Shown here piece by piece: positions 9,360-11,578 of a DNA stretch of 40,447 nucleotides. Each line of letters begins with the position of its first letter. The stretch's first letter is position 1. The translations under genes were made by a program, and so were the position numbers. This DNA comes from Bacteroidales bacterium. Lineage in GTDB: Bacteria > Bacteroidota > Bacteroidia > Bacteroidales > UBA932. The notes under the pieces are model-generated. The model did not search any database. It was not told the origin of the DNA and saw only the letters and a list, made by a program, of their open reading frames with translations. The stretch spans positions 1-40,447 of the forward strand of contig JAGCDF010000060.1 of the NCBI GenBank assembly GCA_017651225.1. The letters run 5' to 3'.

Positions 9360-9812
9360 ATGCGCGTCGTTATCCAGAGGGTTACTTCCGCTTCCGTTAC
9401 GATTGACGGGAAGGTCCGGTCGGAGATCGGGCCGGGGTTGCTGGTGCTGCTCGGGATCGGCCCGGACGACGGGGCGGAGGATATCGAGTGGCTGGTCCGG
9501 AAGGTGGCCGGGCTGCGGATCTTCAACGATGACGAGGGGGTGATGAACCGGAGTGTCGTGGAGATTGGGGGCGAGGCGCTGGTGGTGAGCCAGTTCACGC
9601 TGATGGCCTCTACCAAAAAAGGCAACCGGCCGTCTTATATCGGCGCTGCCGGGCACGAAATCGCGATTCCGCTGTATGAGACGTTCTGTCGGGAACTGGG
9701 CGCTGCCATCGGCCGGCCGGTCGGGACGGGGGAGTTCGGCGCCGATATGAAAGTCGCGCTGCTGAACGACGGCCCCGTCACCATCTGCATCGACTCGAAA
9801 AGCCGGATCTGA
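9360..9812 (+). CDS. dtd: D-aminoacyl-tRNA deacylase
   Basis: A 150-residue enzyme that hydrolyses D-amino acids mischarged on tRNA. It begins MRVVIQRVTSASVTIDG, the usual DTD N-terminus, and has both active-site motifs: SQFTL, and NDGPVT in the C-terminal part. Length is as expected. The ATG at 9360 was chosen because family homology starts there; the longer upstream frame is antisense-like sequence inside the ClC gene. The left end of the RAYT unit begins only 17 bp after its stop and may serve as its transcript end, since no other terminator is seen. Confidence 0.96.
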   Translation: MRVVIQRVTSASVTIDGKVRSEIGPGLLVLLGIGPDDGAEDIEWLVRKVAGLRIFNDDEGVMNRSVVEIGGEALVVSQFTLMASTKKGNRPSYIGAAGHEIAIPLYETFCRELGAAIGRPVGTGEFGADMKVALLNDGPVTICIDSKSRI

Positions 9813-9829
9813 TTTACTCGCTTGAAAAT

Positions 9830-9939
9830 GGGGAAGGTCTGATTATAGGGTCGGCACCTTCACCATTGGAAGTGCCGCAGAACACTGTCAGATGTAGAAT
9901 GACCGGGGAAGGTCCCCTACCTGGAATCAGGCCTTTCCC
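9830..9939 (+). repeat. left 110-bp palindromic end repeat of the RAYT unit
   Basis: It starts GGGGAAGGTCTGATT (9830-9844) and ends with the complementary AATCAGGCCTTTCCC (9925-9939). Both departures from perfect complementarity in this stem are G.T pairs, so the hairpin is preserved. A third copy of the core, GGGGAAGGTC, lies inside at 9905-9914. Confidence 0.8.
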
Positions 9940-10018
9940 GTAAAATTTGTATTTTTTATCCGATTACTCTTTTTTAAACGGATAGCTATACCTACTTTGG
10001 CCGAAAATACTTTAGATT

Positions 10019-10372
10019 ATGAAAAAGATTCTAGAAATCCTCCAGTATGGAGAAACCGACATCCGTTTCAAAACGGATCTCAAGCCAGCCGAAAAACCGG
10101 ATACCATTCCGGGACTTATCGCTGCATTCTGCTTCGCCATGATGACCTCTTTGTGGGGTGGCAATGAACAAGACGTTATGGCTATTATCAGGGCCTTGGC
10201 CATTGCGGATTTGTCAGTCAGCGTAAACCGCGAAGAGATGATCAAGATGATTGATCTGGAGTCCGCCGAGTTTTCTCGACTTGTGCAGGAGGCCCACAGG
10301 GAATTCGAGAAGAACGGCGGGAAGATCGTGCAGTTTGCACCATTCATCCAGCCTGGCAAGATGAGGAGCTGA
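10019..10372 (+). CDS. unknown ORF paired with the RAYT transposase
   Basis: This 117-residue protein starts MKKILEILQYGETDIRFKTDL and is predicted mostly helical, with a hydrophobic stretch GLIAAFCFAMMTSLWGG (about 39-55) and a helical segment VNREEMIKMIDLESAEFSRLVQEAH. I do not recognise a domain. It ends two bases before the transposase ATG, with a GAGGAG ribosome-binding site for that gene inside its 3' end, so the two are surely co-translated. Upstream (9940-10018) is AT-rich DNA with a 6-bp inverted repeat TATCCG/CGGATA (9957-9962, 9979-9984) but no clean -7 element. Its place inside the end repeats suggests a role in transposition, its control, or repeat binding; that is inference. Confidence 0.75.
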   Translation: MKKILEILQYGETDIRFKTDLKPAEKPDTIPGLIAAFCFAMMTSLWGGNEQDVMAIIRALAIADLSVSVNREEMIKMIDLESAEFSRLVQEAHREFEKNGGKIVQFAPFIQPGKMRS

Positions 10373-10374
10373 CC

Positions 10375-11292
10375 ATGCGTCGCGTTGTTACACACGAGCT
10401 GCCGGATGGAAGCATTCGGCAGCTTTATCCCTTTCATATCAGCATGGAGGGGCTGGAAACGGCTATCCTGTGCCGGGATGACGTGGATTATGATGCCATG
10501 GTGAAAATCCTGTGCATCGCAGCTCGCAGGAAGAACGTCATTGTCGTCATTTATGCGGTTGTCTCCAACCATAGCCACGTTGCCATTCTGGCAGCCAGCC
10601 AACAAGAAGCTCATGACTATGGACAGGAGTTGAAAAGGATGTATGCCATGTGGTTCCGGCGCAAATACGGTGAAAGCAGCGTCCTGCGAAGGACAGATAT
10701 CAAAGCCATTCTGTTGGATTCTGACTGGTATGTCCGTAATGCCCTGGCGTACATTCCCCGGAATGCCTTGGATAACGGATGTCCAATCAATGATTATCGT
10801 TGGACGGGATACCGAGCCATGTTCAGGGAAAACACTATTCCCGGCCCTGTCCGACGGGTCGCCGGACTGACGAAAAGAGAGCGGGAGTCGATTATGCATA
10901 CCGGAGACGATTTATCCGGTGTCTCATGGCTGATAGACAGTAAAAACGAGTTAATCCCGGACAGCTTCTGCGAACACCGCTATCTGGAGCAGGCCTTCGA
11001 ATGGGATCATGCTTTCTTCCTAAAGACCCTGGGTGGGCAGAACTCGGCAGAAATGTATAACAAGTTGATTGATACTCCCAGACAGATGCAAACCGACGGT
11101 GAATTCTTCAAACGGGCCAACGAGACCTGTCAGAGATGGTTCAAGGAAGATCTGTCCGGAATTTCCGAGGAAAGAAAAACGAGATTGATTCCTTATCTGT
11201 ACCGTACATGCCATACCACCATTCCGCAGCTTTCGCGGGCATTCGGGCTCTCCCAGAGCAGAGTCTCCCATATTCTAGGTCGGAAATCTTGA
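10375..11292 (+). CDS. REP-associated tyrosine transposase (RAYT, Y1/HUH family)
   Basis: A 305-residue single-strand DNA transposase of the TnpA-REP type, which in studied bacteria nicks and moves hairpin repeats. The HUH metal-binding pair is NHSH (His66, His68) after a beta strand VIVVIYAVVS. The likely catalytic tyrosine is Tyr126 in LAYIPRNAL, which corresponds to the family's YIxxNP motif, and YRWTGYRAMF matches the usual YxWSSYRAY. The C-terminal 40 residues (RTCHTTIPQLSRAFGLSQSRVSHILG) form a helix-turn-helix, an extra DNA-binding module that could read the repeat ends. No TnpB-type partner is present. The reading frame is complete, so the unit may be active. Confidence 0.88.
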   Translation: MRRVVTHELPDGSIRQLYPFHISMEGLETAILCRDDVDYDAMVKILCIAARRKNVIVVIYAVVSNHSHVAILAASQQEAHDYGQELKRMYAMWFRRKYGESSVLRRTDIKAILLDSDWYVRNALAYIPRNALDNGCPINDYRWTGYRAMFRENTIPGPVRRVAGLTKRERESIMHTGDDLSGVSWLIDSKNELIPDSFCEHRYLEQAFEWDHAFFLKTLGGQNSAEMYNKLIDTPRQMQTDGEFFKRANETCQRWFKEDLSGISEERKTRLIPYLYRTCHTTIPQLSRAFGLSQSRVSHILGRKS

Positions 11293-11312
11293 TTATTTCT
11301 GAAAGGATTTCT

Positions 11313-11422
11313 GGGGAAGGTCTGATTTTAGGTGGCAGACCTTCCCCGGCAATTCGGCCTCTGAAAGTCTCCAGTGACACTTTCCATGGTGAAGGTGTCG
11401 ACCCTAAAATCAGACCTTCCCC
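11313..11422 (-). repeat. right 110-bp palindromic end repeat of the RAYT unit
   Basis: A perfect 20-bp inverted repeat closes it: GGGGAAGGTCTGATTTTAGG at 11313-11332 against 11403-11422. A competing shorter stem pairs 11313-11324 with CAGACCTTCCCC at 11336-11347. An inner imperfect palindrome surrounds CCATGG. It is the inverted counterpart of the left repeat. Confidence 0.82.
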
Positions 11423-11451
11423 AAAAGGCGGAGCCAGTGCTGCTCTTCGTC

Positions 11452-11476: not shown

Positions 11477-11578
11477 TCATTTGATATATAACTTCTTTGC
11501 CTTCAGGTCGAGGATGATGGCGAAGTGCTCCCAGACTTCGTTGCCGACGAGGGTGGTGAAAACGTCGCTGGTGAGAGA
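11477..11578 (-). pseudogene. 3' remnant of a retropepsin-like aspartyl protease gene
   Basis: On the minus strand, 33 codons after a TGA and without a start codon read ...TTLVGNEVWEHFAIILDLKAKKLYIK-stop (the end in parts: LVGNEVWEHF, AIILDLKAKKLYIK). This resembles the end of Bacteroidetes retropepsin-like proteases, where GxxxLxxFxVxxDxxxxxIYxx is typical. The rest of the gene is missing; its upstream edge abuts the stop of the TPR gene, implying a deletion. The assignment is by pattern only. Confidence 0.5.

Follow-up and report, generated by a model that had tools for sequence, protein, structure and literature searches.

The window, a 40,447-nucleotide stretch of DNA from a Bacteroidales bacterium (contig JAGCDF010000060.1), carries a pair of genes set between two inverted repeats. 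We annotate the locus and its neighbours as follows:

9360-9812, plus strand: dtd, D-Tyr-tRNA deacylase, the upstream neighbour
9829-9940, minus strand: upstream REPIN-like element, 112 nt (arm comparison, covariance model R1, fold), with mutually inverted REP hairpins at about 9829-9864 and 9905-9940
10019-10372, plus strand: partner ORF, 117 aa (homologues upstream of other RAYTs)
10375-11292, plus strand: RAYT-like Y1/HUH transposase, 305 aa (Pfam Y1_Tnp, invariant residues)
10570-10578, within the transposase: H66-S-H68
10750-10752, within the transposase: putative catalytic Tyr126
11312-11423, plus strand: downstream REPIN-like element, 112 nt (arm comparison, R1, fold), with REPs at 11312-11347 and 11388-11423
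11483-11578, minus strand: remnant of an aspartyl-protease-like gene, 32 codons (tblastn)

The arms form a gapless inverted match of 116 nt (9829-9944 and 11308-11423) that is 79% complementary, and BLAST of one flank against the other gave 80.2% over 111 nt (E 3.6e-25). The covariance model R1 placed elements at 9829-9940 on the minus strand (90.6 bits) and at 11312-11423 (111.8 bits), with no further significant match in the window beyond both arms. These comparisons confirm a preliminary description of this DNA, which had reported two gapless inverted repeats at about 80% bracketing a Y1/HUH gene and a partner ORF. In an Rfam scan of the window, one tRNA and one tmRNA alone attained the gathering score, and we rejected a known RNA family as an explanation. 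The G+C content of the unit is 49.6%, against 61.9% for the window, and a lower value occurs in 0.26% of equal-size windows (100-nt steps). The gene remnant has an intact counterpart in the genome RUG11407, a 301-aa ORF matching Pfam Asp_protease_2. AAAA is present at both outer edges of the unit (9825-9828 and 11423-11426), a string too simple for calling a target-site duplication.

By sequence, the larger protein belongs to the RAYT type, having a Y1_Tnp domain with the HUH motif and a putative catalytic tyrosine. It matches Pfam Y1_Tnp at 26.1 bits (cut-off 23; E 1e-5), a domain matched by 30 of 31 family members at E<=0.1. In an alignment of 31 relatives, the residues conserved without exception include N65, H66, H68, K87, Y126 and N130, as expected for an HUH/Y1 nuclease. 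The middle residue of the HUH motif is a serine in the window protein (HSH), and its tyrosine motif is YIPRNA, the family motif being Y-x3-N(A/P). Relative to canonical RAYTs there is a long C-terminal extension, whose tail (about residues 274-302) shows weak HTH similarity only. A PDB search by sequence with the RAYT alone gave nothing credible, and a RAYT profile reached the transposase entries 2xm3, 2xo6 and 2xma at merely E 0.3. The hallmarks of IS200/IS605 elements are a Y-x3-Q motif and near-identical genomic copies; with Y126 and N130 invariant and intragenomic copies only 41-58% identical, we rejected such an element. We also rejected a plasmid origin, as the RAYT protein had no match at E 1e-5 in the plasmid collection.

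Each arm consists of two facing REP hairpins of about 36 nt, 112 nt in total, and the whole arm can also fold on itself. At the right end, 11309-11347 is 82% complementary to 11388-11426, and the single-stranded DNA fold of 11312-11423 gave z values of -7.2 and -8.4 for the two strands; the left arm folds less convincingly (-3.6 and -2.1). The preliminary description had noted that the same 5' sequence faces outward at each end. We see this too, although it is largely a consequence of the internal dyad of each arm and so says less about the unit as a whole. A scan for long palindromes in the flanks of 35 RAYT loci yielded 27 copies, picked by eye, of which 20 were aligned (A1); other flanks in the scan gave no copy for A1. 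The seven left out were L051dn (shortened), the copies of about 99 nt at L020, L023, L024 and L025, and the two at L027; all but the two L027 copies were subsequently recovered by R1. In A1 the outer stem is paired in 81.4% of cells, with 13 double-change pairs, a percentage that is partly circular because the scan scored outer pairing. The two separate REP hairpins, which the scan did not score, are paired in 89.2%, with 16 double-change pairs. Both alternative pairings covary, and the covariation score was equalled in 0 of 500 shuffles for either one, a test that is inflated by the relatedness of the copies. The letters of the stems vary by lineage (GGGGAAGGTC, GGGCAAGGTC, GTTCAAGGTC and GGCGCAGGTC, among others; GGGGAAGG or GGGAAAGG in the window), and the pairing is largely kept. 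A GT(A/G)G head was found at neither outer hairpin foot in any of 62 copies. The same tag occurs in the REP1 loop region of only 10 of the 62, and we find a tag in the inner REP loop unconvincing.

The repeat is also dispersed without the genes. R1 matches 33 of the 61 genomes of the genus, this one included; counts per genome are lower bounds, with up to 62 candidates scored in each, and the richest genome has at least 45 matches counted on both strands, or about 20 sites or more. The window's own genome (G000), an assembly 79% complete, has at least three full sites and one single REP. Beyond the window these comprise a full copy at C76 and a single REP at C51, and a plain DNA search of this genome likewise found few copies. 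RUG11407 has at least eight sites, six of them with no RAYT within about 1.5 kb, and no RAYT was found at 14 loci (12 distinct sites) around solo copies in G008, G028 and G034. The preliminary description had allowed that the repeats might occur only at this locus; they occur elsewhere, away from the gene pair. With one arm as query, a plain DNA search reached no more than 4 of 101 genomes; it is the structure model R1 that shows the repeat to be widespread.

R1 was present in the fetched flanks of all 26 close RAYT loci, 10 of which had not been used in building it. The match was at E<=1e-5 for 24 of them, was weak at L017 and L052 and lay 1 kb distant at L016; it stood on both sides at 11 loci and on one side at 15, three of these at contig ends. 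Elsewhere R1 was found at 0 of 29 control dtd loci, 1 of 9 distant RAYT loci, 8 of 10 later-fetched RAYT loci (one weak) and 1 of 7 loci retrieved solely on account of the partner (L055); the RAYT-bearing L059 and L060 were without it. By genome, it occurred in all 21 with a close RAYT (E<=1e-80) versus 12 of 40 others (Fisher 3.8e-8). Distances between RAYTs and between REPINs were correlated (Mantel r 0.50, p 0.001, 16 loci), both for the stems (r 0.54, p 0.0007) and with RUG11407 removed (r 0.43, p 0.004). The repeat and the RAYT co-diverge, and this correlation together with the association makes them look cognate, as reported for RAYTs generally. Distant RAYT relatives have palindromes of their own, on one or both sides, that R1 missed (L027, 1294-1402 and 2583-2691; L028; L026).

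The stop codon of the partner ORF lies 2 nt before the RAYT start. No Pfam, NCBIfam or PHROG family matched the partner above cut-off, and its profile found nothing credible in PDB. By a strict count, a partner homologue ends 1-3 nt before the RAYT start at 10 of the 26 close loci. The earlier reading of a RAYT-type transposase is supported, and its partner gene is genuine. Contig ends truncate two further partner loci, L015 and probably L055/L006. In the latter, a REPIN and the partner stand at the end of one contig and a RAYT and a REPIN at the start of another, and L055 and L006 are probably two halves of one locus. Weak partner relatives at L019, L020 and L023 (E 2.4e-4 to 3.8e-6, with just 55 ORFs searched) were not recovered by the genome-wide profile search, and at 11 of the 26 close loci no partner was found. 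The partner also precedes more distant Y1-like ORFs at L059 and L060, and at L056, L061, L062 and L063 it stands, as read by eye, with no adjoining Y1-like ORF. Within the genus its profile matches 15 of the 61 genomes; in a sample of 393 genomes from the order it matches this genome alone. RAYT and partner, with a dN/dS of 0.054, are both under purifying selection. That the partner is a cofactor or regulator of the RAYT is a guess, which we rate as slightly less likely than not.

We compared the locus with excerpts of the published descriptions of related systems. In those of Nunvar 2010 (PMC2817692), every RAYT gene lies between two inverted REPs and forms a transposon-like unit with them, and the abstract gives REPs as usually exceeding 100 copies per genome. 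The preliminary description had opposed this locus to classical RAYTs beside short REPs, recalling no such architecture, a contrast that PMC2817692 had already removed. As in the RAYT/REPtron systems excerpted from PMC2817692 and PMC8266576, a Y1/HUH gene lies here between two inverted palindromic repeats, which also occur gene-free at scattered sites, gene copies are divergent and not identical, and repeat and transposase co-diverge. Unlike those systems, the locus here has no GT(A/G)G head, a 112-nt element, a partner ORF, and a longer protein with a C-terminal extension, a Y-x3-N-A motif and 'HSH'; the copies here are apparently far fewer, by counts that are lower bounds (at least three full sites). 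The arms resemble the REPIN, as excerpted from Bertels and Rainey 2011 (PMC3116915), in being inverted REP doublets that form one long hairpin with compensatory changes, and differ from it in that the GTAG head is missing and that some genomes have concentric 22-nt half-REP wrapping.

RAYT-like genes between long, sometimes self-complementary TIRs are named 'TIRtrons' in the excerpted text of PMC3733652, where a GGGGWSAS motif is reported for some, not all, TIRs of the TIRtron/TIRYT type. Long, partly self-complementary TIRs around a RAYT-like gene are common to the window, to TIRtron/TIRYT and to TnpA-Y1 subclass 2.1 as excerpted from PMC6006769, but by eye GGGGWSAS does not fit GGGGAAGG or GGGAAAGG. 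Subclass 2.1 also has a long protein with a C-terminal tail that is possibly an HTH, the HTH similarity in the window being weak. Its HUH, W and Y motifs differ from those here, where a partner ORF is also present; in a by-eye comparison, the window's HUH and tyrosine motifs match no row of Table 1 in that paper. Subclass 2.6, described in the same excerpts, is likewise from Bacteroidetes and has atypical structures without GT[AG]G around the genes and copies elsewhere in the genome, but its proteins (median 179 aa, YIH[QN]NP) are unlike the 305 aa and YIPRNA of the window. The architecture is already known, and our best call is that the locus is a variant REPtron with an extra partner gene and an unusual type of hairpin. 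Given the missing GT(A/G)G head and an abundance that appears low from lower-bound counts, we would not class it among canonical GTAG REPtrons, though it looks as if it works like a REPtron. Our literature search found no paper on a RAYT in Bacteroidales and no title or start of an abstract on this type, which is weak evidence of absence.

Mobility of the REPINs alone is the model proposed for such systems. We consider it likely that this is a REPtron-like locus, where a resident RAYT-like nuclease and its upstream partner, between cognate 112-nt REPINs, would mobilise the REPINs and not the genes. The RAYT would recognise REPIN hairpins in single-stranded DNA, nick beside them via the putative catalytic Tyr126, and place REPINs, by copying or moving them, at new positions, while the gene pair would stay where it is. 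As a resident, the cassette may be exchanged now and then from one lineage to another, with homologous recombination the probable route. The partner would be co-produced with the RAYT and is probably a RAYT-binding or regulatory cofactor, which is the least secure step. Counting against this REPtron-like reading are the 0 of 62 GT(A/G)G heads, R1 in 12 of the 40 genomes that have no close RAYT, R1 at just 1 of the 7 partner-fetched loci and at neither of the RAYT-bearing L059 and L060, one-sided R1 at 15 of 26 loci, the weak fold of the left arm, a copy number that looks low from lower-bound counts (at least three full sites), and a partner that was not found at 11 of 26 close loci and also occurs where no adjoining Y1-like ORF was seen.

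Alternatively, the whole REPIN-partner-RAYT-REPIN unit may be an autonomous transposon with the 112-bp REPINs as its TIRs, a TIRtron in the strong sense, which we judge quite improbable. Bracketing by inverted arms and a G+C content of 49.6% versus 61.9% favour this, as does the placement of related units in other neighbourhoods, no ClC/dtd/TPR match having been found in the fetched flanks, several of them short, of the other 24 close loci. In RUG11407 the unit lies between the same neighbours (amino acid identity 98% for the ClC channel, 95% for the TPR protein and 95% for the M56/TonB protein). With this locus occupied there too, the unit is no fresh insertion here. The NG86 dS against RUG11407 is 0.20 for ClC, 0.19 for TPR, 0.09 for M56, 0.29 for ORF122 and 0.58 for dtd; for the partner and the RAYT it is 1.41 and 1.54, values near 1.5 being close to saturation. 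dN/dS is at most 0.25 for all genes compared. A RAYT dS of 1.54 where ClC, TPR and M56 give 0.09-0.20 would suit a transposon, and it also means that the cassette was probably exchanged. In RUG11407 dtd is inverted (L049, 2953-3405) relative to the window, and its orientation relative to ClC in G058, G008 and G015 is that of the window. The simplest reading of these comparisons is that dtd and the RAYT cassette were probably exchanged with a more distant lineage, in either the window lineage or RUG11407; the alternatives are independent insertion at the same place and unusually fast change. G008 has ClC, another gene, dtd, a thioredoxin-like gene and TPR, with no RAYT. This unoccupied neighbourhood, a further point for a transposon, is yet too diverged for reading the junction, and the absence of the unit fits gain or loss.

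Other evidence speaks against an autonomous transposon. Close-RAYT copies within one genome share only 41-58% amino acid identity (11 pairs, from nine genomes with more than one close match), so there is no sign of recent gene copying. The REPIN pair gives direct matches at L020, L021, L023 and L025 and is direct or ambiguous in orientation at L010 and L051, and R1 is one-sided at the 15 loci noted above. No clean base-resolved empty site was found in comparisons covering the C76, C51 and L106 REPINs. The C76 REPIN is absent beside the orthologous tRNA-bearing region of RUG11407, where nothing aligns beyond position 1395 of L104. At the C51 place there is a single REP here and a full REPIN in RUG11407; the right flank aligns adjacent to it, the DNA immediately to the left fails to align, and a more distant part on that side aligns in inverted orientation. 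The flanks of the L106 REPIN have no unique place in this genome, and the adjoining DNA is another dispersed repeat (L106, 1621-1807), which is different from the REPIN and has matches in C64, C22, C72, C6, C70, C8 and others. The preliminary description had taken the 1.6 kb for a mobilisable unit and proposed a search for an empty site identical to its flanks; with none found, no near-identical copies and the same locus occupied in RUG11407, mobility of the whole unit is unsupported. REPIN-only mobility fits the data, direct movement not being seen at the C76 and C51 comparisons. Finally, that the host has domesticated the RAYT gene and that the flanking REPINs are ordinary structured repeats between genes, serving as terminators or nucleoid-protein sites and not mobile at present, is very improbable: it agrees with a dN/dS of 0.054, the same position in a related species, the few REPINs of this genome (at least three full sites) and the lack of a visible insertion junction at C76 and C51, but not with REPINs that are strongly tied to close RAYT loci (26 of 26 versus 0 of 29 controls), co-diverge with the RAYT and differ in number between congeners, from none found to at least about 20 sites.

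Beyond the REPtron-like reading, we regard as unlikely, though conceivable, a distinct and apparently genus-restricted two-gene RAYT class, in which the partner and a C-terminal HTH would enable the RAYT to read 22-bp-phased double-stranded half-REPs in addition to single-stranded hairpins, and lineages would trade the RAYT cassette at one constant position in the chromosome. If true, this would explain the concentric 22-nt half-REP arrays of some congeners. RAYTs are held to be domesticated transposases, and we know of no established job for them. In a Bacteroidales lineage whose RAYT-REPIN pairs are numerous and divergent, and which also has a co-encoded partner and phased half-site arrays, natural variants can be used to test how a RAYT reads a repeat that lacks the GTAG guide, and whether it needs a second protein.

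Several congeners have REPINs enclosed by units that recur every 22 nt exactly. Each unit comprises an 11-nt half-stem and 11 nt more, in direct orientation to the left of the REPIN and inverted to its right. Such arrays surround REPINs at L047, L035, L022 and L044 (G034), L038 and L148 (G028; L148 by eye) and L145 (G048); the window arms have no 22-nt array units. A distance of 22 bp is two helical turns, and phasing at this step would suit an HTH that binds double-stranded DNA. A unit stands at -22 in 12 of 62 copies (five genomes; seven copies in G034) and at +22 in 17 of 62 (seven genomes; eight in G034), and more units follow at 44, 66 and 88. Counting a match at any offset, we observed 20 copies on the left and 21 on the right, against about 4-5 per side in shuffled flanks. 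One variety of the array has 21-nt steps.
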